Source: Paracoccus spongiarum
GTDB taxonomy: Bacteria; Pseudomonadota; Alphaproteobacteria; Rhodobacterales; Rhodobacteraceae
NCBI RefSeq assembly: GCF_030732095.1
Contig: NZ_JAVAMQ010000002.1
Span: 186,001-250,000, forward strand
Length of the DNA stretch: 64,000 nucleotides
Direction: 5' to 3'
Part shown: piece by piece, positions 11,153 to 46,085 of the stretch
How positions within the stretch are numbered: the first letter of the stretch is position 1
How the letters are laid out: the number at the start of each line of letters is the position of its first letter
Made by a program: the position numbers and the translations under genes
Notes under the pieces: model-generated
What the model saw: the letters and a program-made list of their open reading frames with translations, nothing else
What the model was told of the DNA's origin: nothing
Database searches by the model: none

Positions 11153-12190
11153 TCAGCCCTTGCGGCCGCCGCGTCCGTATTGAAGCGAGTTCATCAGCAC
11201 CGCCAGCACGATCACCGCGCCGGTGAACACGGTCTGCCAATAGGACGACACGCCGATGATCACGAGGCCGTCCGACAGGAAGCCGATCACGAAGGCGCCC
11301 AGCATGGTGCCCTGGATGGTGCCACGCCCGCCGGTCAGCGCCGCGCCGCCGATCACAACCGCGGCGATCGCCGTCAGCTCGTAGGTGACGCCAGCGGTCG
11401 GCCCGGCCGAGGTCAGTTGCGAGGCCAGCACGAGGCCCGCGATGGCCGACAGGATGCCCGACAGCGTATAGACGGTGATCTTCACCCGGCGGGTCGGCAC
11501 GCCCGACAGTTCGGCCGCGCGTTCATTGCCGCCCGAGGCGTAAAGCCAGCGCCCGAAGGAGGACCGCGTCAGCATCAGCGCCGCGAGGACCGCCAGCACC
11601 GCCAGCACGATCACCGAGATCGGCACACCGGCGATGCGGTTGAAGCCCAGCCAGTCGAAGCCGGTATTGCCCAGCTCGGCCCGGCCCGACAGGTTGTTGT
11701 AGGTCAGCCCGTTGGTCATCAGCAGCGCGACCCCGCGCGCCACATACATCACCCCCAGCGTGGCGACGAAGGCCGGCACCTTGAAGATCGAGATCAGCAC
11801 CCCGTTCACGGCCCCGACCAGCCCGCCGACGAGGCAGGTCAGCACGACCACAGCCCAGACCGGCGGATACAGGATCACGCCCAGGGCGTCGATCTCGAGC
11901 CCCTGCATCATGGCGCCGGCGACGACGCCCGACAGCGCCAGGATCGAGCCCACCGACAGGTCGATGCCGCCGTTCAGGATCACCAGCAGCATGCCGATCG
12001 CCAGGATGCCGTAGATGGCCACATGGCTGGCCATGATCAGGAAGTTGCCGACCGTCAGGTAGTTCGGCGACAGGATGGAAAAGACCACGATGATCGCGAT
12101 CAGCGCAAAGAAGGCCCGGCCTTCCAGCAGCAGGCGACCAAGGCTGAAATCGGCCTTCTTGGCGGGGCGGGTGATGGTGGTGTCCGACAT
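11153..12190 (-). CDS. eryF: ABC importer permease, ribose/erythritol type
   Basis: A 345-residue inner-membrane permease of the RbsC family with about 8-10 membrane segments. Typical stretches are FSILSPNYLTVGNFLIMASH, GGIDLSVGSILALSG and GGRGTIQGTMLGAFVIG. The start is the ATG at 12190, preceded by GAGGGAGA; a GTG at 12208 is in frame but lacks a good site. It lies between the ATPase gene and the binding-protein gene. Substrate assignment to erythritol comes from context. Confidence 0.85.
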   Translation of the reverse strand: MSDTTITRPAKKADFSLGRLLLEGRAFFALIAIIVVFSILSPNYLTVGNFLIMASHVAIYGILAIGMLLVILNGGIDLSVGSILALSGVVAGAMMQGLEIDALGVILYPPVWAVVVLTCLVGGLVGAVNGVLISIFKVPAFVATLGVMYVARGVALLMTNGLTYNNLSGRAELGNTGFDWLGFNRIAGVPISVIVLAVLAVLAALMLTRSSFGRWLYASGGNERAAELSGVPTRRVKITVYTLSGILSAIAGLVLASQLTSAGPTAGVTYELTAIAAVVIGGAALTGGRGTIQGTMLGAFVIGFLSDGLVIIGVSSYWQTVFTGAVIVLAVLMNSLQYGRGGRKG

Positions 12191-35762: not shown

Positions 35763-36425
35763 GTGAAACAGTCACATGATCTTCAGTCGGATCAGGCCTT
35801 TGCGGCACTTCTGGCGGCGCTGAAGGATGGCCGGCTGCGCAGCAGCGAATTCCAGGCGATGCCGTCGCTGGCGGCGGTTCTGGGCTTTCCCCTTGCCGCA
35901 ACGCGCGAGGCGGTCAAGCGCGCCGAGGAACAGGCTCTGGTGGTGATTCTGCCCAAGCGCGGCGTGATGATCATGGAGGCGGGGCAGGACATCACCCGCG
36001 CCTGCATGGACATGCGCGCCGCGCTTGAGAAAGAGGGCGTGCGCCGCCTGCTGGCCTCGGGGCGGCCCGATCTTGGCCGGTTGCGCGATGCCCATGAAAG
36101 CCTGCTGGACGAGGCCCGGACCGATCCCGGCGCCGACCTGTCACGCCGGGCGCTGGCGACCGACCTGACGCTGCACGACTTCATGGCCGGCGGGCTTGAC
36201 AACCCCTTCCTGAGACGCGCCTACGAGGCCAATCGGAACCGCATCACCATCATCCAGAATGTGCGCACCTTCCTGCCCGACCGCGTGGTGCCCGCCATGC
36301 AGGAGCATCTGCAGATCATCGAGGCGATCGACAGCGGCGATCCGGTCCGCGCCGCCGAAGAGATCGAGCGCCACCTGCGCCAGACGCTGCGCTGGTGGGG
36401 CGTGGCGCCGGATGCTCAGGGCTGA
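35763..36425 (+). CDS. GntR-family transcriptional regulator (FCD type)
   Basis: A 220-residue regulator with an N-terminal winged helix (AMPSLAAVLGFPLAATREAV, KRAEEQALVVILPKRGVMIM) and an all-helical FCD-like sensory domain (LHDFMAGGLDNPFLRRAYEA, EHLQIIEAIDSGDPVRAAEE). The GTG at 35763 is the likely start, with GGGAAAG upstream. It is divergent from the YfcC-type transporter and probably responds to that transporter's substrate. Its 3' end overlaps the convergent binding-protein gene by ten bases. Confidence 0.82.
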   Translation: MKQSHDLQSDQAFAALLAALKDGRLRSSEFQAMPSLAAVLGFPLAATREAVKRAEEQALVVILPKRGVMIMEAGQDITRACMDMRAALEKEGVRRLLASGRPDLGRLRDAHESLLDEARTDPGADLSRRALATDLTLHDFMAGGLDNPFLRRAYEANRNRITIIQNVRTFLPDRVVPAMQEHLQIIEAIDSGDPVRAAEEIERHLRQTLRWWGVAPDAQG

Positions 36426-37450
36426 ATCATCGCCGCGCTCCATTCGCTCAGCAGCCCGGCACGGCGCAGACGGTCGTCATAGACCAGCAGCCCGGCATCG
36501 AGGCGGATCGGACGCAGATGCGGCGAGGGCGCCGCGCCGGTGCCGGGGATCAGCGCAACCCCCGCATTCTCGGCGATCCGGGCCTGACTGGACGGGGCCA
36601 GCAGCCAGGACAGCAGATCGGTGGCGTCCGACGGGTTCGGCGCATTGGCCGGCACCAGCGCCGAGCGGACGATCGCCAGCGTATAGTCCTCCAGCACGAG
36701 GCGCACCAGGTCGGGATCGTCGGGCGCGTAGCGCGAGGCATAGCTGGCCACGACGTTGTAGGCGATCGTGACCCGGCCGGCGCGCAATTCGTCGATCATC
36801 TCGCCCGAACAGCAGAACAGCCGGGCGTTCAGCCGGCCCATCACCTCGGCCAGCCGCCAGAATCCCTCGGATTGCTGGCTGTCCTGCGAGATCAGGAAAT
36901 AGCCGACGCCCGAACTGCGCGGATCATAGCTGGCGACGCGGCCGTCGAAGCGTTCGGGGTTCTCGCGCAGCATGGCGATCAGGTCGCGCCGGGTGCGCGG
37001 CACCGGCAGGTCGCCCAGGCCCTGCCGCGAGGCCAGCGTCACCACCGGTTCCAGCGCGACCCCGAACAGCTGGTCCCGCCAGCGGGCCCAGTCGGGCAGC
37101 CCGCCAAGCTGCGGCGAGACCGAGGCCGCAAGCCCGTCATTGGCCAGTTTCATCTGCAGGTCCATCGCCGAGGACATGACCAGATCGAAGGGAACCGCCT
37201 CGTCACGGATCGCGCGGAACACCTCGACGCTGGACGCCTGGACATAGCGAAGGCGCAGGCCGGGACGCGCCGCGACAAAGCCCTCGAGCACGCTGTCGAT
37301 GGCCTCGAGATCGGTAGTCGAGATGACGCTGACCTCGCGCCCCTCCTCGGGGCCGAAGGACCGCTCGACCTCGATCTCGTAGGCGCTGGCGGCCGTCGCC
37401 AGCCACAGCAGCATGGCGGCACCGCGCAGAAAGCCCCGCAGCGGCGTCAT
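36416..37450 (-). CDS. Periplasmic solute-binding protein without its own ABC permease (likely co-sensor)
   Basis: A 344-residue periplasmic binding protein of the iron/spermidine/phosphonate-like class, with a signal peptide (FLRGAAMLLWLATAASAYE). It has VSVISTTDLEAIDSVLEGF, the hinge-region FDLVMSSAMDLQMKLANDGL and SSGVGYFLISQDSQ. The ATG at 37450 overlaps the stop of the sensor kinase gene as ATGA, so the two are made together. No ABC permease or ATPase gene is near. By analogy with binding proteins that pass ligand signals to a kinase, it may present a ligand to the adjacent sensor; this is inference. Confidence 0.78.
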   Translation of the reverse strand: MTPLRGFLRGAAMLLWLATAASAYEIEVERSFGPEEGREVSVISTTDLEAIDSVLEGFVAARPGLRLRYVQASSVEVFRAIRDEAVPFDLVMSSAMDLQMKLANDGLAASVSPQLGGLPDWARWRDQLFGVALEPVVTLASRQGLGDLPVPRTRRDLIAMLRENPERFDGRVASYDPRSSGVGYFLISQDSQQSEGFWRLAEVMGRLNARLFCCSGEMIDELRAGRVTIAYNVVASYASRYAPDDPDLVRLVLEDYTLAIVRSALVPANAPNPSDATDLLSWLLAPSSQARIAENAGVALIPGTGAAPSPHLRPIRLDAGLLVYDDRLRRAGLLSEWSAAMIQP

Positions 37451-38838
37451 GGCAGCGCGAGGGACAGCGTCGCGCATGCGCCCTTCTCCGGTCCGGGGCG
37501 CAGGTCGAAGCTGCCGCCATGGGCGGCGGCGACCTCGCGCACGATGGTCAGCCCGAGGCCGGATCCGACGACATCGCCGACATTGCTGCCGCGCCGGAAC
37601 CGCCCGGTCAGGTCGCTGTCGCCCTTTGCAAGCCCGCGCCCCGCATCCTGCACCGACAGGTGCGCCATGCCGTCCGCCTGGTAAAGCCGCAGGGTGATCC
37701 GCCCCTCGGAGGCCGAATATTTCAGCGCATTGTCGAGGATGTTGCGCAGCGCGACCTCGATCATCCGCTCGTCGCCATGCAGCGGACATGGCCTGTCGAG
37801 GCCCTGCGCGGCGATCTCGATGTCACGCATCTCGGCCAGCGGCGCGACCGCGCGCAGCACCGAGGCGGTCAGCGCGGCCAGATCGAAGGGCGCGGCGGCG
37901 AACTGGTCGCTGCGATACAGCACCATCGCATGGTCGAGGATCTGGTTGGCCGAGCGGCTGCTTTCGCCGATGGCGCGCACCATGCGCCGCAGGCGCTGCC
38001 GGGTCGCCTCGTCCGACGTTTCGGCCAGCGCCATCTCGGCCTCGTTGCGCACCAGCGACAGCGGCGTGCGGATGCGGTGCGCGGCCTCGAAGATGAAGGT
38101 CTCGGCCAGTTGCAGCGCGCCCCGCAGGCGCGCGATGAAGCCGTTCAGCGCGCCCACAAGCGGCACCAGCTCGCGCGGCGTGGGATCGCGCACCGGGCGC
38201 AGGTCCTGCGGGCCGCGCCGTGTCACCGCCGCCGCCAGACGATCCACCGGCCGGATCACCGCCCGCGCCGCGAACAGCGCAACCGGCACCGCCAGCAGCA
38301 GGAACCCCAACCCGATCCAGACCGCGCTGCGGGCCGTGTCGCGGGCGATGGCGGCCTGGCCATAGCGGGTCTGGCCCAGCACCACGACGATCTCGGCCAT
38401 GCGGTTGTCCAGAAGCACGCGCCGGGTGATCGCCGCCAGCCGCAGACGGCTGGCCCGGTAATCCGCGCTCCAGAACACTGGCGACAGGTCGCCCGGAACC
38501 TCGGGCGGCGGCGGCAGGCCCTCGTATCCGGTCACCAGCCGCGATCCGATCGCGAGGCTGTAGAAGATCCGTTCCTGCCCCATCGCGCCCAGCATCGAGA
38601 AGGTCGCGTGGGGCAGGTCAAGCTCCAGCCCGTCATCGACGGCGCGGATGCCGTCGCCCACCGAGATGACGGCCGCGCCCAGGACCGCGTCCTGGCTGGC
38701 CCGCGAGGCACGCTCGGCCGCGAAGCGCACGGTGAAGAACAGCGCCACCACCAGCAGCAGCGACAGCACCAGGAACTGCCACACCAGCCGCCGCCGCAGC
38801 GAGATGCCGGCCGGCAACGCGGCGCCGGCCGGCGTCAT
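37447..38838 (-). CDS. Sensor histidine kinase, TctE-like
   Basis: A 463-residue sensor kinase. It has a membrane segment at about 19-38, a periplasmic part to about 170, a second membrane segment at about 172-194, a HAMP region and a histidine-kinase core. The phosphorylated histidine is H254 (FIFEAAHRIRTPLSLVRNE). The ATP-binding domain has LRNILDNALKYSASEG and GSGLGLTIVREVAAAHGG. TctE kinases sense tricarboxylates and switch on tctCBA, which lies divergently beyond the response regulator. It overlaps both neighbours by four bases, forming a tight three-gene operon. Confidence 0.88.
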   Translation of the reverse strand: MTPAGAALPAGISLRRRLVWQFLVLSLLLVVALFFTVRFAAERASRASQDAVLGAAVISVGDGIRAVDDGLELDLPHATFSMLGAMGQERIFYSLAIGSRLVTGYEGLPPPPEVPGDLSPVFWSADYRASRLRLAAITRRVLLDNRMAEIVVVLGQTRYGQAAIARDTARSAVWIGLGFLLLAVPVALFAARAVIRPVDRLAAAVTRRGPQDLRPVRDPTPRELVPLVGALNGFIARLRGALQLAETFIFEAAHRIRTPLSLVRNEAEMALAETSDEATRQRLRRMVRAIGESSRSANQILDHAMVLYRSDQFAAAPFDLAALTASVLRAVAPLAEMRDIEIAAQGLDRPCPLHGDERMIEVALRNILDNALKYSASEGRITLRLYQADGMAHLSVQDAGRGLAKGDSDLTGRFRRGSNVGDVVGSGLGLTIVREVAAAHGGSFDLRPGPEKGACATLSLALP

Positions 38839-39500
38839 TCGGGAATCAGCCGATAGCCCACGCCGCGCAGCGTCTCGAGGCGCGCGCCCGAACCGTCAAG
38901 CTTGCGCCGCAGCCTGCCGACATAGACCTCGATCGCGTTGTCGCTGACCTCCTCGTCGAACGAGAACAGCCGGTCGATCAGATGCGGCTTCGAGAAGGTC
39001 TGCCCCGGCCGCGACAGCAGGATTTCCAGCAGCCGCAACTCGCGGGCGCGCAGTTCGCGCAGCTCGTCGCCCACCGTGATGGTGGCCGACAGCGCGTCGA
39101 AGATGAAGCCCGCGTAATGGCGCCGGCTGTCCGCCGCGCCCGCATGGCGGCGCAGGACGGCGCGGCAGCGGGCCTGCAGCTCGGCGAAATCGAAGGGCTT
39201 GGTGATGTAGTCGTCGGCACCCTGATCCAGCGTGCTGACCCGGTCCCCGACCGAGGCGCTGGCCGTCATCATGATCACCGGCGTCTCGCGCCGCGCCCCG
39301 CGTTCGCGCGCCAGGAAGTCGCGGCCGTCACCATCCGGCATGGAAATATCTAGCAGGATCAGGTCGTAAGGCGCGGATTCCAGAAACTCTCTGGCTTCTG
39401 CAAGGGTCGCTGCGCGATCCACGCCATGCCCGTCCATCGCCAGCCGCGAGGCCACCGAGGCGGCCAGGTCGTCACTGTCCTCGACCAACAGGAAACGCAT
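38835..39500 (-). CDS. Response regulator, TctD-like (OmpR/PhoB class)
   Basis: A 221-residue response regulator. The receiver domain has the acidic pair E7-D8, the phosphorylation site D51 (LILLDISMPDGDG), and K101 in ITKPFDF. The C-terminal winged helix includes LRARELRLLEILLSRPGQTF and AIEVYVGRLRRKLDGSG. It is first in the operon with the kinase and binding-protein genes and is divergent from tctC; it probably activates that promoter. A candidate palindrome lies between them. Confidence 0.9.
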   Translation of the reverse strand: MRFLLVEDSDDLAASVASRLAMDGHGVDRAATLAEAREFLESAPYDLILLDISMPDGDGRDFLARERGARRETPVIMMTASASVGDRVSTLDQGADDYITKPFDFAELQARCRAVLRRHAGAADSRRHYAGFIFDALSATITVGDELRELRARELRLLEILLSRPGQTFSKPHLIDRLFSFDEEVSDNAIEVYVGRLRRKLDGSGARLETLRGVGYRLIPE

Positions 39501-39523: not shown

Positions 39524-39539
39524 TGACAGGTTGGTGTCA
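39524..39539. promoter_or_regulatory. Candidate TctD binding site before tctC
   Basis: TGACA-GGTTGG-TGTCA is an inverted repeat with a six-base spacer, located 24 bases from the start of the response regulator gene and 68 bases before tctC. The site is suited to control of both divergent operons. Confidence 0.35.
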
Positions 39540-39606
39540 GCTTTCCATCAAATCTTCTACGCTGCAAGTCCGCGCCGCGATCCGGCGCATCCACTGGGAG
39601 GATACC

Positions 39607-40566
39607 ATGAAGACCTGGACCCGTGCGGCGATCGCCGCGCTGATGATGACCGCAGCCATGCCGGCCATGGCCGAGGAATGCATCGCCCCCGCCAACCCCG
39701 GCGGCGGCTGGGATTTCACCTGCCGCCAGATCGGCCGCATCATGACCGAGATCGGGCTGGTGCCGAACATGGTGCAGGTCACCAACCTGAACGGCGCCGG
39801 CGGCGGCGTGGCCTACACGCAGGTCGTCAGCTCGCGCGGCGACGATCCCGCCCTGTTCGTGGCCGCCTCGTCGGCAACCACCACGCGGCTGGCGCAGAAC
39901 GCATTCGCCGGGGCGACGGCCGATCAGGTCCGCTGGGTCGGCTCGATCGGCGGCGATCCCGGCGTTCTGGTCGTGGCCAAGGACAGCCCGTTCCAGAACC
40001 TGACCGACCTCGTCGAGGCGGTGAAGGCCGATCCGGCCTCGGTCGCCTTTGCCGGCGGCTCGGCGGTGGGTGGCTTCGACCACCTGAAGGTGCTGATGAT
40101 GCTGGACAAGGCCGGCTTCGAGGACGCCCGCGCGGTCAAGTATATCGGTCTTGACGGCGGCGCCGACGCCATCACCCAGACGGTCGGCGGGTTTGCCCAG
40201 GCGATGACGGGCGATCTGTCCGAGATCACCGGCTTCATCAAGTCGGGCGATGTGCGGCCGATCGCGGTGCTGTCGGAAAGCCGCGTTTCGGGCTTCGAGG
40301 ACGTGCCGACCGCCAAGGAGCAGGGCGTGAACATCGTCGCGATGAACTGGCGCGGCATCTACGTGCCCAAGGACATCAGCGACGAGGATTACCAGAAATG
40401 GGTCGACATGCTGCGGCAGGTCGGTGAATCCGACCAGTGGAAGCAGGTGATGGCCGAAAACGGGCTGGAACCCTACAACCTGTTCGGCGCCGAGTTCGAG
40501 GCCTTCGTGAACGAGAACATCGCCGAGATCCAGGAGATCTCGCGCGAGATCGGGTTGCTGCAATGA
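39607..40566 (+). CDS. tctC: TctC-family tricarboxylate-binding protein
   Basis: A 319-residue periplasmic binding protein of the tripartite tricarboxylate transporter (TTT) family. The signal peptide is TRAAIAALMMTAAMPAMAEE. The mature part has NPGGGWDFTCRQIGRIM, VTNLNGAGGGVAYTQVV, FAGGSAVGGFDHLKVL and a C-terminal YVPKDISDEDYQKWVDML typical of TctC. GGGAGGA lies just before the ATG at 39607. Its stop overlaps tctB as ATGA. Substrates of this family range from citrate and tartrate to aromatic acids, so the ligand is not fixed. Confidence 0.92.
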   Translation: MKTWTRAAIAALMMTAAMPAMAEECIAPANPGGGWDFTCRQIGRIMTEIGLVPNMVQVTNLNGAGGGVAYTQVVSSRGDDPALFVAASSATTTRLAQNAFAGATADQVRWVGSIGGDPGVLVVAKDSPFQNLTDLVEAVKADPASVAFAGGSAVGGFDHLKVLMMLDKAGFEDARAVKYIGLDGGADAITQTVGGFAQAMTGDLSEITGFIKSGDVRPIAVLSESRVSGFEDVPTAKEQGVNIVAMNWRGIYVPKDISDEDYQKWVDMLRQVGESDQWKQVMAENGLEPYNLFGAEFEAFVNENIAEIQEISREIGLLQ

Positions 40567-41006
40567 TCCGCGGCGACCGCATCTTCGGAGCGGTGATGAT
40601 CGTGGTGGCGCTGGGGTATATCCTCAGCGCCAGCAGCATCCAGACCAGCTTCATGTCCGACCCGGTCGGCCCGCGCATCTTTCCCTACATGATCGCGGCC
40701 GTCGTCATCCTGTCCTCGCTGGTGATGGTGCTGCGGCCCGATCCCGATCAGGACTGGCCCGCCGGCCCGATGGTGGCGCAGCTTGGCCTCGCCCTGGCGG
40801 TGCTGGTGGGCTATGCCTATGCGATCACGCCGCTGGGCTTCATCCTGCCCACGACCATCGCCGCCGGCGTCATCAGCTGGCAGATCGGCGGCAATCCGCG
40901 CCGCGCGGCCATCGCCGGGCTGGGGCTTGCCGTTGGCCTGTTCGTGCTGTTCCGCGTCATCCTTGGGCTGGGCCTGAAGGGTCTTCCCGCTGGCATGGGG
41001 TTCTGA
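40563..41006 (+). CDS. tctB: TctB-family small membrane subunit
   Basis: A 147-residue inner-membrane protein with four predicted membrane segments (RIFGAVMIVVALGYILSAS; YMIAAVVILSSLVMVL; LGLALAVLVGYAYAI; AIAGLGLAVGLFVLFRVILG). It includes the family motif DPVGPRIFPYMIA. It is the small membrane component of the TTT transporter and pairs with TctA. The start overlaps the tctC stop; the gene ends four bases before tctA. Confidence 0.9.
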   Translation: MIRGDRIFGAVMIVVALGYILSASSIQTSFMSDPVGPRIFPYMIAAVVILSSLVMVLRPDPDQDWPAGPMVAQLGLALAVLVGYAYAITPLGFILPTTIAAGVISWQIGGNPRRAAIAGLGLAVGLFVLFRVILGLGLKGLPAGMGF

Positions 41007-41010
41007 GATC

Positions 41011-42537
41011 ATGGAAACACTTGCCAACCTGGCGATGGGATTTTCCATCGCGATCACGCCGTTCACCCTGCTGCTGGCCATCATCGGCTGCTTTGTCGGC
41101 ACCATCATCGGCGCCCTGCCCGGCCTTGGGCCGTCCAACGGGGTGGCGCTGCTGATCCCGATCTCGTTCTCTATGGGGCTGGATGCGATTTCGGCGCTGG
41201 TGCTGCTGACCTCGGTCTATTACGGGGCGATGTATGGCGGCCGCATCAGCTCGATCCTGCTGAACATTCCCGGCGACGAGCCGGCGATGATGACCACGCT
41301 GGACGGCTATCCGATGGCCAAGCAGGGCAAGGCCGCCGAAGCTCTGGTGGTGTCGGGCGTGGCGTCCTTCGTCGGCGCGCTGCTGGCCACCATCGGTCTG
41401 ATGGTCTTTGCGCCCTATCTGGCGCGGGTCGCCTATCAGTTCGGGCCGGCCGAATACTTCGCGCTCTACATGCTGGCCTTCTGCACGCTGGGCGGCATGG
41501 GCTCGAACAACCAGGCCAAGGCGGCGCTGGCCGCGGCTATCGGCCTCGGCATCGCGATGATCGGGCTGGACAAGACAACGGGCATGCCGCGCTTTACCTT
41601 CGGCGAGCTGCACCTGATGGACGGGGTCGACTTCCTCGTGGCCATCGTCGGCCTGTTTGCCGTGGCCGAGGTGTTTCACTTCATCGAAAGCCACGGCAAG
41701 GACAGCGCGATCGGCGTCAAGCTGGGCAAGATCCTCGTGCCGTGGAGGATGCTGAAGCAGACCAGCGGCGCGATGCTGCGCGGCACCGGCATCGGCTTCG
41801 TCGCGGGCGTGCTGCCCGGCGCCGGCGCCTCGCTGGGGTCGTTCCTGGCCTACATGGCCGAGAAATCGGCCGCCAAGGACAAGGCGACCTTCGGCCAGGG
41901 CAACCCCAAGGGCGTCGCCGCACCGGAAGCCGGCAACAACGCCGCGGCGGGTGGCGCGCTGGTGCCGATGCTGACGCTGGGTGTTCCCGGCTCGGGCACC
42001 ACGGCGGTCCTGCTGGCGCTGCTGCTGACGCTGAACATCACGCCGGGGCCGCTGCTGTTCACCGAACGGCCCGAGGTGGTCTGGTCGCTGATCGCCTCGC
42101 TGCTGATCGCCAACGTCGTGCTGTTGCTGATGAACGTGCCGATGATCAAGGTCTTCGTGAAGATCCTGTCGGTGCCGGCCTGGGTGCTGCTGCCGGGGGT
42201 GACGATGGTGGCCTTCGTGGGCATCTACTCGCTGACCGGATCCAGCTTCGACATGCTGATGATGGTGGGCTTCGGCGTGCTGGGCTATGTCATGCGCAAG
42301 CTGGACATCCCGACCGTCCCGGTCATCCTCGGCATCCTGCTGGGCAACGCGATGGAGGACAACCTGCGCCGCGCGATGGTGCTGTCGAACGGCGACTGGA
42401 CCTTCCTCTTCAGCTCGCCTATTGCGGTGGGGCTGTGGATTGCCGCGGTTCTGGGCTTCCTGGCCCCGCTGTTCCTGCGCCGGCTGCTGAAAAAGCCGCC
42501 GCTGCCCACCACCGACCCCACGCTGAACGAGGACTGA
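41011..42537 (+). CDS. tctA: TctA-family large membrane subunit
   Basis: A 508-residue permease with about 12 membrane segments. The two hallmark motifs are present: GALPGLGPSNGVALLIPISF in the first half and GVLPGAGASLGSFLAYMAEK in the second, with LGVPGSGTTAVLLALLL after it. It carries out proton- or sodium-coupled uptake of substrate handed over by TctC. The gene follows tctB directly and precedes the AtuA-like gene by four bases, so transport and metabolism are likely co-expressed. Confidence 0.94.
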   Translation: METLANLAMGFSIAITPFTLLLAIIGCFVGTIIGALPGLGPSNGVALLIPISFSMGLDAISALVLLTSVYYGAMYGGRISSILLNIPGDEPAMMTTLDGYPMAKQGKAAEALVVSGVASFVGALLATIGLMVFAPYLARVAYQFGPAEYFALYMLAFCTLGGMGSNNQAKAALAAAIGLGIAMIGLDKTTGMPRFTFGELHLMDGVDFLVAIVGLFAVAEVFHFIESHGKDSAIGVKLGKILVPWRMLKQTSGAMLRGTGIGFVAGVLPGAGASLGSFLAYMAEKSAAKDKATFGQGNPKGVAAPEAGNNAAAGGALVPMLTLGVPGSGTTAVLLALLLTLNITPGPLLFTERPEVVWSLIASLLIANVVLLLMNVPMIKVFVKILSVPAWVLLPGVTMVAFVGIYSLTGSSFDMLMMVGFGVLGYVMRKLDIPTVPVILGILLGNAMEDNLRRAMVLSNGDWTFLFSSPIAVGLWIAAVLGFLAPLFLRRLLKKPPLPTTDPTLNED

Positions 42538-42541
42538 TCCC

Positions 42542-43903
42542 ATGCCGACCCGCGTTCTGGTGCCTTCGGGCGTCCTGGGGCTGGGCTTCGACCACGCCGC
42601 GCTGATGCGCGGCGTGGCGATGCGCCCCGACATCATCTGCATCGACGGGGGGTCCACCGACAGTGGGCCCTTCAGCCTTGGCGCGGGGGTGTCGAAATAC
42701 TCTCGCGCCGCGACGAAATCGGAATGGCGCAGCCTGATGCGGGCCCGCGCCGAGGCAGGCGTGCCGCTGGTCATCGGCACGGCAGGCACCTGCGGCACCG
42801 ACAGCACGGTGGACTGGATGTATGACATCACCACCGAACTGGCCGCCGAACTGGGCCAGTCGCTGAAGATCGCCCGGCTCTATTCCGGCCAGCCCGTCGA
42901 ACGCATCGCCGAGGCAATGACAGCGGGCCGCATCGCGGCCCTGCCCGCCGCCCCGGCCATCGCGCTGGAGGGCCTTGCCAACATCGTGGCCTTGGCCGGG
43001 GCCGAGCAGATCCAGGCCGCGCTGGCGACCGGCGCCGACATCGTGATCGCCGGGCGCACCACCGACACCGCCACCATCGCCGCCCTGCCGCTGTCGCGCG
43101 GCGATGCCGCCGGCGGCGCGTGGCATGGCGCCAAGATCGCAGAATGCGGCGCGCTGTGTTCCACGAACCCGACCTCGGGGGTGATCATGGTCGATTTCGA
43201 CGAGACCGGCTTCACCGTCGAGCCGCTGGCCGACAGCGCCGCCTGCACGCCCCATTCGGTCAGCGCGCATATGCTGTATGAAAATTCGGACCCGTTCATC
43301 CTCTACGAGCCGGGCGGGCATCTGGACGTGACCGGCGCGCGCTATGCCGCGCTGGACGGCCGCCGCGTCCGGGTCGAGGGCTCGCGCTGGCTGCCCGGCC
43401 CCTACACGGTCAAGCTGGAAGGCGCGCGGGTCGCGGGCTACCAGACCACGATCCTCGCGATCCTGCGCAACGCCCATTACGCGGCCAATGCGCAGGCCTG
43501 GGTGGACCGGCTGTCGGGCTTCCTGGCCCGCGAGATCGAGACCCGGATGGGGCTGGCCCCCGCCGATTACGGGCTGGAGTTCCGGCTGATCGGCGTCAAT
43601 GGCGCGCTTGGCCCGCTGGAAAACCGCTGCGGCGATCCGGTCGAGGTGGGCGTTCTGGGCATCGTCACCGCCCGCAGCCAGGCCGAGGCCGCCGAGATCG
43701 GCAAGCTGATCAACCCCTTCGTGCTGCACTACCCGCTGACCGACGACGAGGAACTGCCGACCTTCGCCTTCCCCTATTCGCCGGCCACCACCGATCGGGG
43801 CGCGCTGTATGAATTCGCCCTGAACCATGTGATGCATCTCGACGATCCGATGGCCGCGTTCCGCATCGAGGTGACGCAGATCGGCGCGGAGGTTCCGGCA
43901 TGA
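42542..43903 (+). CDS. AtuA-like DUF1446 family protein
   Basis: A 453-residue protein of the AtuA/DUF1446 family: RVLVPSGVLGLGFDHAALMR, the conserved DIICIDGGSTDSGPF, PLVIGTAGTCGTDSTVDWMY, DIVIAGRTTDTATIA and YEPGGHLDVTGARYAALDGR. AtuA was named from acyclic terpene use in Pseudomonas, but its reaction is not established. The abundant aspartates and glycines suggest a metal- or phosphate-assisted enzyme; this is inference. It overlaps the DUF4387 gene as ATGA, and the two families usually occur together. Here the pair is joined to a tricarboxylate transporter, suggesting action on a di- or tricarboxylate. Confidence 0.85.
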   Translation: MPTRVLVPSGVLGLGFDHAALMRGVAMRPDIICIDGGSTDSGPFSLGAGVSKYSRAATKSEWRSLMRARAEAGVPLVIGTAGTCGTDSTVDWMYDITTELAAELGQSLKIARLYSGQPVERIAEAMTAGRIAALPAAPAIALEGLANIVALAGAEQIQAALATGADIVIAGRTTDTATIAALPLSRGDAAGGAWHGAKIAECGALCSTNPTSGVIMVDFDETGFTVEPLADSAACTPHSVSAHMLYENSDPFILYEPGGHLDVTGARYAALDGRRVRVEGSRWLPGPYTVKLEGARVAGYQTTILAILRNAHYAANAQAWVDRLSGFLAREIETRMGLAPADYGLEFRLIGVNGALGPLENRCGDPVEVGVLGIVTARSQAEAAEIGKLINPFVLHYPLTDDEELPTFAFPYSPATTDRGALYEFALNHVMHLDDPMAAFRIEVTQIGAEVPA

Positions 43904-44199
43904 AACTGGGTGATGCCGTCCTGAAAGTGCGGTCCAAGAATGCCGGGCCGTTCTGGGTCACCATCGACATCTTCTGCGACCGGCCCGAGATCTTCGCGCG
44001 GGTGCGCGACACCCTTGGCAACCGCGAGGTGGCCGCGCTTTACAACGTGCCCGAGGCAACGCTGAAACGCTTTGACATCGAGGATCTGCGCGTCGTCAAG
44101 TTCAGCCTGCCGCGTCCGGTCGTGCAGGGCTCGGCGGCCGACCGCGACATGCATGGCGCGCAGTATGCGGCGCTTCTGGAGGAACATGACCTCGCCTAG
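43900..44199 (+). CDS. DUF4387 family protein
   Basis: A 99-residue protein of the DUF4387 family: LGDAVLKVRSKNAGPFWVTI, DIFCDRPEIFARV and the late FSLPRPVVQGSAADRDMHGA. The family is known mainly as a partner of DUF1446 proteins and is probably the small subunit of the same enzyme. Its start overlaps the upstream stop by four bases and its end overlaps the next gene by 14 bases. No function has been shown that I know of. Confidence 0.85.
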   Translation: MKLGDAVLKVRSKNAGPFWVTIDIFCDRPEIFARVRDTLGNREVAALYNVPEATLKRFDIEDLRVVKFSLPRPVVQGSAADRDMHGAQYAALLEEHDLA

Positions 44200-45214
44200 A
44201 CGCCGCCTGCTGACCTTCGCGCTGGCCGCGGCCGGCGCGGCGGCCTTCCTGATCCTCGGCCTGCCGCTGCCCTGGCTGCTGGGTCCGATGCTGGCCTGCC
44301 TGATCGCGGCGCTGGCCGGCGCGCCGCTGGCCGGCGCCGGGCAGTTCGGCATCTTCATGCGCACGTTCCTGGGCGTTGCCGTGGGTGCCTCGATCACGCC
44401 CCAGGTGCTGACCGGCCTGCCCGACATCGCCGCCTCGCTGGCGCTGGTGCCGGTCTTCATCGCGGTGATCGCGATGATCGGCTATCCGCTGTTCCGCCGC
44501 GTCTTCGGCTTCGACCACCCGACCGCCTGGTATGCGGCGATGCCGGGTGGCCTGCAGGACATGCTGGTCTTTGGCGAAGAGGCGGGTGGCGACATCCGCG
44601 CGCTGTCGCTGATCCATGCGACGCGGGTGCTGGTGATCGTGACGGTGGCGCCGCTGATCATGCAGCTTTACTGGGGCGTGGACCTGTCGCAGCCCCCCGG
44701 CGCCCCGATCACCGAGACCGGCGCGGCCGACATCGCGATCATGGTCGCGGCGGGCCTTCTGGGCTGGAAGATCGCCGAGCGGGTCGGCCTGTTCGGCGCC
44801 TCGATCCTCGGTCCGATGATCCTGACCGCCGCGCTGTCGCTTATGGGCATCATCGACCACCGCCCCCCGGCCGAGATCATCCAGGCCGCGCAGTTCTTCA
44901 TCGGCATCGCCGTGGGCGTGAAATATGCCGGCATCACCGCGCGCGAGCTGCGCATCGACGTGACGGCGGGGCTGGTCTATGCGCTGCTGCTGGCGGTCAT
45001 CAGCCTGATCTTCATCGAGGTGATCCTGATCCTGGGCCTTGCCCCGGCGCTGGATGCCTTTCTGGCCTATCTGCCGGGCGGGCAGGCCGAGATGGTGGTG
45101 ATCGCGATCATCGCCGGTGCCGATCTGGCCTATGTGGTCAGCCACCACCTGCTGCGCATCATCATCGTCATCACGCTGGCGCCGCTGGTCGCGCGGGTCA
45201 TGTCGCGGCGCTGA
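44186..45214 (+). CDS. AbrB-family integral membrane protein (putative transporter)
   Basis: A 342-residue membrane protein with about 10 segments and the duplicated AbrB/Gate-like fold: LGLPLPWLLGPMLACLIAAL in the first half, RVFGFDHPTAWYAAMPGGLQ, then GASILGPMILTAALSLMGII and YLPGGQAEMVVIAIIAGADL in the second. GGAGGA lies just before the ATG at 44186, which is inside the end of the DUF4387 gene. The family is often annotated as a regulator of aidB, but the protein itself looks like a carrier. In this operon it may export a product or import a second substrate. Its end overlaps the convergent TolB-like gene by 17 bases. Confidence 0.82.
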   Translation: MTSPRRRLLTFALAAAGAAAFLILGLPLPWLLGPMLACLIAALAGAPLAGAGQFGIFMRTFLGVAVGASITPQVLTGLPDIAASLALVPVFIAVIAMIGYPLFRRVFGFDHPTAWYAAMPGGLQDMLVFGEEAGGDIRALSLIHATRVLVIVTVAPLIMQLYWGVDLSQPPGAPITETGAADIAIMVAAGLLGWKIAERVGLFGASILGPMILTAALSLMGIIDHRPPAEIIQAAQFFIGIAVGVKYAGITARELRIDVTAGLVYALLLAVISLIFIEVILILGLAPALDAFLAYLPGGQAEMVVIAIIAGADLAYVVSHHLLRIIIVITLAPLVARVMSRR

Positions 45215-46085
45215 CCGGCGCGGTGCCGGACGCATAGCGCATGAAGGCGAAGGCGTGGCCGTCGGGCGCCCATGAGGGCACGTTCAGGCTGCCCTGCCCG
45301 CCCAGCAGATCGACGATCCGCCGCCGCCCCGACCCGTCGGGCGCCATCAGCCACAGCGACACGTCCAGATCGCGCGGATGGCCCGCCGTGCCGGGCGGAT
45401 AGGCCAGGTAGACGACATGCCGTCCGCAGGGCGAGGGATGGGGAAACCAGTTCACGTTGTCGTCACGAAAGACCGGCGCCGCCCCCTGCCCGTCACGGCC
45501 GACGCGCCAGATCTGCGCATGGCCGGTGGCGTCGGAATTGAACCAGACGACCTGCCCGCAGGCCGAGAAATCCGGCCCGTCATGATGCGCAGACCCCTGC
45601 GGCGTCAGCACCCTTTCTATGCCGCTGTCCAGATCCATCACCGCGACCCGCACGACCCGATCGCCGCCGCGCACGCAGGCATGGGCGATCCAGCGCCCCT
45701 CCGCGCCCAGATGCGCCCCGTGCCACCAGCTTGGGCGCGCCGCCAGAACCTCGCGCGGGCCGTCGGCCTCAAGCATGTAGATGCCCGAGCCATGCGCATT
45801 GTGGCAGGAAAACAGGATGCGCCCGTCGGGCAGGATGCCATGATCGTTGTTGCAGCGGTCCAGCCCGCCGATATCGATGGCCCGCAACCCGGCGGCATCA
45901 GCCCGCCACAGCCGCCCCTCGGCATTGACGAGGAACCAGCCCTCGGGATGCCAGTTCGGCGCCTCGATCAGCCGCGGCGAGCGCAGCACCACCCGGCAGC
46001 GCCCGGACGCGATGTCAAAGACCTCCAGCGAGGATCGCCAGCCGGCCGCGCCGGGCCGCGCATCGGATGGATCGTCGCGTGTCAT
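45198..46085 (-). CDS. TolB-like beta-propeller protein
   Basis: A 295-residue protein built of repeated blades of the WD40-like/PD40 type: PNWHPEGWFLVNAEGRLWRA, ILPDGRILFSCHNAHGSGIY, GPDFSACGQVVWFNSDATGH, PHPSPCGRHVVYLAYPPG and PSWAPDGHAFAFMRY. No signal peptide is seen, so it may be cytoplasmic. Similar propellers occur in TolB and in oligogalacturonate lyase relatives; an enzymatic role is possible but no active site can be named. The start at 46085 is the first ATG; the true N terminus could be slightly shorter. Confidence 0.7.
   Translation of the reverse strand: MTRDDPSDARPGAAGWRSSLEVFDIASGRCRVVLRSPRLIEAPNWHPEGWFLVNAEGRLWRADAAGLRAIDIGGLDRCNNDHGILPDGRILFSCHNAHGSGIYMLEADGPREVLAARPSWWHGAHLGAEGRWIAHACVRGGDRVVRVAVMDLDSGIERVLTPQGSAHHDGPDFSACGQVVWFNSDATGHAQIWRVGRDGQGAAPVFRDDNVNWFPHPSPCGRHVVYLAYPPGTAGHPRDLDVSLWLMAPDGSGRRRIVDLLGGQGSLNVPSWAPDGHAFAFMRYASGTAPVSAAT

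Follow-up and report, generated by a model that had tools for sequence, protein, structure and literature searches.

An AtuA-DUF4387 pair coupled to a tripartite tricarboxylate importer in Paracoccus spongiarum: a probable lyase module for tertiary hydroxy acids

The six-gene operon

The subject of this analysis is an operon of Paracoccus spongiarum that joins a tripartite tricarboxylate transporter (TTT) to a protein pair of the AtuA (DUF1446) and DUF4387 families. It lies within a stretch of 64,000 nucleotides (contig NZ_JAVAMQ010000002.1, positions 186,001 to 250,000), here termed the window, and coordinates are those of the window. All six genes are on the forward strand. The first three encode the TTT: TctC, the periplasmic binding protein (39607-40566; PF03401, 105 bits), TctB, the small membrane subunit (40563-41006; PF07331, 67.6 bits), and TctA, the large membrane subunit (41011-42537; PF01970, 503 bits), so that all three components of the transporter are found by the Pfam scan. 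The fourth gene (42542-43903; PF07287, 86 bits) encodes the AtuA/DUF1446 protein, predicted to be the large subunit of a citramalate-lyase-like C-C lyase on its similarity to Protein Data Bank (PDB) chain 9erq_A, and the adjacent fifth gene (43900-44199; PF14330, 89.5 bits) encodes the DUF4387 protein, the predicted small subunit, which resembles 9erq_B. Both exceed the curated Pfam scores (22.8 bits for AtuA and 27 bits for DUF4387). The sixth gene (44186-45214) encodes a membrane protein with an AbrB duplication (PF05145, 261.6 bits; TIGR03082, 163 bits with a cut-off of 94.7), which appears to be accessory.

The genes are tightly packed. From the sequence, tctC and tctB overlap by 4 bp, gaps of 4 bp separate tctB from tctA and tctA from the AtuA gene, and the AtuA and DUF4387 genes overlap by 4 bp. 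The DUF4387 and AbrB genes overlap by 14 bp if the latter starts at the ATG at 44186, a start of our choosing for which the mechanical list of open reading frames (ORFs) has an earlier TTG at 44072. The six-gene unit proposed in an earlier reading of the letters and ORFs (the sequence-only reading) is thus borne out, with the expected Pfam families on one strand and junctions of 4, 4, 4, 4 and 14 bases. Family searches of the 3.93-Mb assembly find a single AtuA match and a single AbrB/PF05145 match, both inside the operon. On the opposite strand, a convergent ORF (45198-46085) shares 17 bases with the 3' end of the AbrB gene.

Homology to citramalate lyase CmlAB

A search of PDB sequences matches the large subunit to 9erq_A (E 1.5e-68) and the DUF4387 protein to 9erq_B (E 6.2e-11), and the alignments span residues 4-446 of 453 and 9-92 of 99, respectively. 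Both subunits match the same two entries, 9erq and 9evf, which are the sole clearly related PDB entries for each. The large chains of these entries are named 'Acyclic terpene utilization AtuA family protein' and 'Citramalate lyase, subunit A (cmlA)', the small chains 'DUF4387 domain-containing protein' and 'Citramalate lyase, subunit B (cmlB)', and 9evf is entitled 'Citramalate lyase - ADP - pyruvate complex'. The activity is taken from these names and the 9evf title, the literature search having found no paper that describes 9erq or 9evf. The sequence-only reading had held that neither family has a proven reaction, a statement that looks outdated in view of these chain names. Its proposal of a two-subunit enzyme is supported, and so is a hydroxy-di- or tricarboxylate as the likely substrate class.

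The fold of the large subunit agrees with this homology. An AlphaFold2 model built on 52 sequences (predicted local distance difference test score 91.3) superimposes on 9evf_A with a Z of 47.4 and a root-mean-square deviation of 2.6 over 445 aligned residues, a comparison that covers subunit A only. With Foldseek, 9evf_A is the one match at E ≤0.001. Nearly all of the lower structural matches cover only residues ~291-433 of the large subunit and are not taken as kin.

Conservation extends to single residues. An alignment of 110 AtuA rows has 37 columns of at least 97% invariance, all 37 of which are retained by both the window protein and 9erq_A; the positions include D35, S38, D40, R172, D175, K198, E201, C202, H243, Y246, E247, K291, E293, E368 and H429. 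For the small subunit, 109 rows give 12 columns of at least 95% invariance; the window protein keeps all 12 and 9erq_B keeps 11. The window pair (453 and 99 amino acids) and CmlAB (456 and 105 amino acids) are thus alike in their near full-length match, the fold of the large subunit and the 37 common invariant positions.

The genomic setting of CmlAB is that of glutamate fermentation. Over its aligned part, 9erq_A shares 94% identity with a copy from Salmonella and 92% with one from Escherichia coli. Both copies belong to pairs that lie in an operon with glutamate mutase genes, immediately preceded by methylaspartate ammonia-lyase and followed by genes for a symporter and a class I fumarase. 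A Prevotella copy has a similar glutamate-fermentation gene set. Such operons need a citramalate-cleaving step, which, going by the names of the structures, the pair would supply. The enterobacterial pathway to (S)-citramalate is described in the available part of a 2015 account in which the DUF1446 gene is of unknown function (PMC4682846). An iron-response table of Prevotella intermedia, in the portion of the source available, places methylaspartate ammonia-lyase and AtuA-family genes side by side and leaves this reading unchanged (PMC10434189), as does PMC8307300. By contrast with CmlAB, which is coupled to the methylaspartate pathway, the window pair is coupled to TctCBA and to a set of kinase, regulator and binding protein.

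Divergent sensor genes and an upstream repeat

Three genes on the reverse strand diverge from the operon. The nearest (38835-39500) encodes a response regulator of the OmpR/PhoB type by Pfam, for which TctD is the best NCBIfam model at 183.7 bits, below the cut-off of 337. The second (37447-38838) encodes a sensor histidine kinase with a 2CSK_N sensor domain (81.9 bits). The third, absent from the sequence-only reading, runs from 36416 to 37450 or 37477 and encodes an extracytoplasmic solute-binding protein (PF13531) with a signal-peptide-like N terminus, a possible co-sensor.

A direct repeat, TGACAGGTT-NN-TGTCAGCTT, with an 11-bp period lies at 39524-39543 (forward strand) in the 106-bp region between the regulator gene and tctC; it is predicted to be an operator to which the response regulator probably binds. 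The 17-base core of the repeat, a pattern picked after the sequences had been viewed, has an exact copy in 40 of the 47 intergenic regions compared, and all 47 have it with at most three mismatches, against 1 of 940 shuffled regions. The 47 regions are those of the window and of 46 of the 50 relatives with regulator and kinase genes (L084, L092, L093 and L096 are left out). At up to two mismatches the extended repeat occurs once in the genome of P. spongiarum and the reversed control not at all; a weaker match to the core, with three mismatches (0.45 expected), is found in the window at 11687. PhoB boxes, the operators of the same regulator subfamily, have repeats with a 5-nt spacer according to the available text of PMC4513871, and the TGACAG-N5-TGTCAG of the window repeat has the same spacing.

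The arrangement is like that of known citrate systems. In the accessible part of PMC5812351, several characterised TctCBA systems import citrate, and citrate-bound BctC, a protein of the TctC type, is required for signalling by BctDE of Bordetella. BctCBA/BctDE and TctCBA/TctDE share with the window a TTT importer that adjoins a two-component system, and in that part of the source no C-C lyase is described in their operons, whereas the window operon has a predicted one. The window also differs from them in the extra binding protein that follows the kinase. By analogy with BctC, the kinase may receive its signal from TctC or from the extra binding protein, and induction of the operon would then be ligand-dependent.

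Gene neighbourhood among the closest relatives

Neighbourhoods were compared in 80 loci, the 80 best of 337 confirmed relatives (genome contigs), which are the closest kin and not a random sample. DUF4387 follows AtuA in 79 loci; in the exception (L070) the downstream sequence amounts to no more than 58 bases. TctA is the gene directly before AtuA in 57 of the 80; a more distant TctA follows in 8 and is divergent in 3, and the remaining 12 are without TctA within the limits used, 6 of them with less than 4 kb upstream. Homologues of the kinase and regulator are found upstream in 50 loci, and the solute-binding protein together with both in 49, or 47 of the 64 loci with at least 6.3 kb upstream. 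The window genes outside the block (GntR, TolB-like and Sat/CysC) are found in none of the 80.

The nine recurrent families are those of the block, and any other family occurs in at most 8 of the 80 loci (by clustering of simple gene calls). In loci with the importer no enzyme other than the pair recurs widely, as would suit a lyase with products that pass straight to central metabolism. No methylaspartate-pathway genes are found among the block genes or the nine recurrent families, the rest of the genome not having been searched. The single sense-import-metabolise unit of the sequence-only reading is supported. At the level of the order, the window type and its homologues are found in 81 of 390 genomes.

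The AbrB gene is less constant. It follows DUF4387 in 20 of the 80 loci and is present somewhere in 28, and it looks accessory because it directly follows DUF4387 in just 18 of the 73 loci with at least 1.5 kb downstream. Export of the product, suggested for the AbrB protein in the sequence-only reading, is a conjectural role. In Paracoccus seriniphilus (L131, 10739-11601), an MbcA/ParS/Xre antitoxin and RES-family pair comes after DUF4387, in the place of AbrB.

A clade apart from CmlA

In a tree of 110 rows, the window protein and 76 other rows form a clade apart from 11 CmlA-like rows, with starred branches between; the window protein falls outside the CmlA clade, and its closest rows are from Paracoccus species. 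The tree was made by a quick method that gave warnings over several long branches. Besides the window protein and 9erq_A, it draws on 108 of the 149 locus proteins, with L101-L130 and nearly identical rows dropped and L016 cut to 450 residues.

The window protein is 34% identical to CmlA, and its clade has 25 fixed differences from CmlA in the large subunit and 6 in the small subunit. At three of the 25 positions Gln or Asn replaces an Arg or Lys of CmlA (Q301/R307, N391/R393 and N248/K254, window/CmlA); T174 and T176 of the window protein are also among the 25. Differences of this kind are expected at 34% identity.

The pair outside the window's group

Across the wider phylum, the link to the transporter is the exception. 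An evenly drawn phylum sample comprises 299 genomes, 19 of them positive for the pair. Just 4 of these 19 have TctA within 10 kb of DUF4387; all 4 belong to the window's family, where the ratio is 4 of 5. A search for TctC in the same sample adds no genome within 10 kb. A general TTT-DUF1446 link is therefore rejected on the figure for the phylum sample. The sequence-only reading had named, as a point that would count against it, pairs being rarely near carboxylate transporters in other genomes; this is partly so, the TctA link being usual in the window's family and rare in the rest of the phylum sample.

The other 15 regions of the sample were searched with a hand-made set of neighbour probes, which is incomplete, and some of the regions are short. 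Within these limits, an ABC ATPase is found in 3 (L153, L154 and L159), a 2-hydroxyacid dehydrogenase in 2 (L159 and L164), a CoA transferase or CoA-ester lyase homologue in 4 (L155, L161, L162 and L166) and response regulators only in 1 (L160), while 6 have no partner recognised by the incomplete set.

Plasmid copies are as varied: those that are annotated adjoin iron-type ABC importers, MFS carriers, a lone TctC, MmgE/PrpD, hydantoinases or 2-hydroxyacid dehydrogenases, and a malonyl-CoA synthase gene is near one Shinella plasmid copy; one plasmid locus (L140) carries no annotation. On a Klebsiella plasmid (L141, 6977-15036), an AtuA-DUF4387 pair, 56% identical to CmlA, neighbours two aldehyde dehydrogenases, two further dehydrogenases and a fumarate hydratase; 12 Klebsiella records of the plasmid collection match the window protein. 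The pair of a Streptomyces linear plasmid (L138, 9001-17249) is next to an MFS carrier, with nonribosomal peptide synthetase and ketosynthase genes about 2 kb on, and that of a haloarchaeal plasmid (L146, 5989-7673) is among genes for a CoA transferase, a CoA ester lyase and an acetate-CoA ligase. A CmlAB-type pair (query L143, 6986-8670) is carried by 1084 of 5426 E. coli genomes, and five listed E. coli records still label it acyclic terpene utilization AtuA and DUF4387.

A proposed function

Gene content, conserved synteny, the homology of both subunits to the deposited citramalate lyase, the invariant residues and the upstream repeat together suggest a dedicated catabolic module for a 2-hydroxy-2-substituted succinate, that is, citramalate or a similar tertiary hydroxy acid (probability about two in three). 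The reaction and the substrate class are predictions drawn by comparison, of which the reaction type is well supported by homology. In the proposed scheme, TctCBA would import the acid and AtuA-DUF4387 would cleave it where the tertiary carbinol carbon joins its carboxylate-bearing neighbour. The products would be a 2-oxo acid (pyruvate, if the acid is citramalate) and acetate or an acetate-level product, for which no further dedicated enzyme would be needed. Induction of the operon via the direct repeat would fall to the divergent kinase and regulator, for which TctC or the additional binding protein may provide the signal. Activation of the carboxylate by ATP is possible, as 9evf holds ADP and pyruvate.

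The proposed reaction has chemical parallels. In the terpene AtuA pathway the intermediate 3-hydroxy-3-isohexenylglutaryl-CoA is cleaved in the same sense. The AtuA-like ThnQ/ThnS of anaerobic naphthalene degradation are reported, in the available part of the source, to cleave next to a tertiary hydroxyl carbon (PMC12016498). By that same partial account, ThnQS differ from the window pair in acting on a CoA ester and in being encoded in a degradation operon with CoA enzymes, and they are likened to it by description, not by sequence. What these cases have in common is that the bond cleaved links a tertiary carbinol carbon to a carbon with a carboxylate.

Several points weigh against the module as proposed. 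The separate clade and the 25 fixed differences indicate that the substrate may differ from that of CmlAB. TctA is near the pair in few genomes of the phylum sample. Most of the small neighbour clusters of the 80 loci are without annotation, and the literature search found no activity, ligand or growth data for the window clade. Lastly, seven loci of a sister group (L073, L076, L083, L089, L091, L095 and L099), six of which have a more distant TctA downstream, hold various of the genes for Iso_dh (a decarboxylating, isocitrate/isopropylmalate-type dehydrogenase), Ldh_2, a hydroxypyruvate-isomerase-like protein and aldehyde dehydrogenase; such dehydrogenases and isomerase are not needed for citramalate alone.

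Within the proposed class, the substrate may be a tertiary hydroxy acid other than citramalate (e.g., citrate, homocitrate, 2-isopropylmalate, 2-methylcitrate or 3-hydroxy-3-methylglutarate), cleaved to an oxo acid and acetate or a small acid. The separate clade and its changed positions argue for such an acid, as does the import of citrate by several TctCBA systems noted above. MmgE/PrpD genes, whose known products act on substrates that share a four-carbon dicarboxylate unit (PMC12290011, in the part available), are near the pair in three loci; these loci lie outside the window clade, and none of the acids listed is directly supported. This reading stands a little short of even odds. A bolder form of it is equally tentative: the lyases of the window clade may constitute a new class by substrate, independent of CoA and possibly in need of a nucleotide, that acts on tertiary hydroxy di- or tricarboxylates distinct from citramalate. 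Each would have an importer and a three-part sensor of its own, such that uptake and one C-C cut make a complete catabolic pathway.

Citramalate is only one candidate and is not well supported as the exact substrate. A plain citramalate utilisation operon, in which TctCBA imports citramalate and the pair converts it to pyruvate and acetate, is a narrower form of the proposed module with overlapping odds. It would account for the homology and fold shared with 9erq/9evf, the retention of all 37 invariant positions and the lack of any further gene family in more than 8 of the 80 loci. The low identity to CmlA, the separate clade and the 25 fixed differences, which include three positions where an Arg or Lys of CmlA is lost, argue against it, and on balance we regard it as unlikely.

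Sugar-acid-like or polyhydroxy acids are less probable still as substrates, whether of a lyase or of another type of enzyme in an importer-fed pathway. The dehydrogenase and isomerase genes of the sister loci point in this direction, and an IlvD/Edd-type dehydratase gene precedes the pair in L060. By contrast, the 57 loci in which TctA precedes the pair hold Ldh_2 and the hydroxypyruvate-isomerase-like gene in none, the Iso_dh cluster in 1, IlvD/Edd in 2 and aldehyde dehydrogenase in 5. Pfam scans of the neighbours are mixed as a clue to the substrate (EamA, IlvD/Edd, TauD, zinc dehydrogenase, pieces of a TPP enzyme, RND efflux, DctM and housekeeping genes).

Action on a CoA thioester, as in ThnQS or the terpene AtuA from whose catabolic role the family takes its name, with the importer an incidental neighbour, is very improbable: CoA transferase or CoA-ester lyase homologues are near the pair in 4 of the 15 other phylum-sample regions and the reported ThnQS substrate is a CoA ester, yet the operon overlaps and the synteny with TctCBA oppose it, and no CoA ligase, CoA transferase or acyl-CoA enzyme is among the identified neighbour clusters of the 80 loci, most of the small clusters being unidentified.

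Significance

The proposed module is ordinary in kind; what is new is its clade, its coupling to an importer and sensor set and perhaps its substrate. The public records examined label the pair 'acyclic terpene utilization AtuA' or DUF1446, and DUF4387, despite the deposited structure of citramalate lyase. Once the window type is recognised as probably a lyase that has a dedicated importer, the conserved pair of DUF proteins yields a short list of acids for assay. The system also offers a route to learning about the activation of free carboxylates in the absence of both coenzyme A and an acyl carrier protein.

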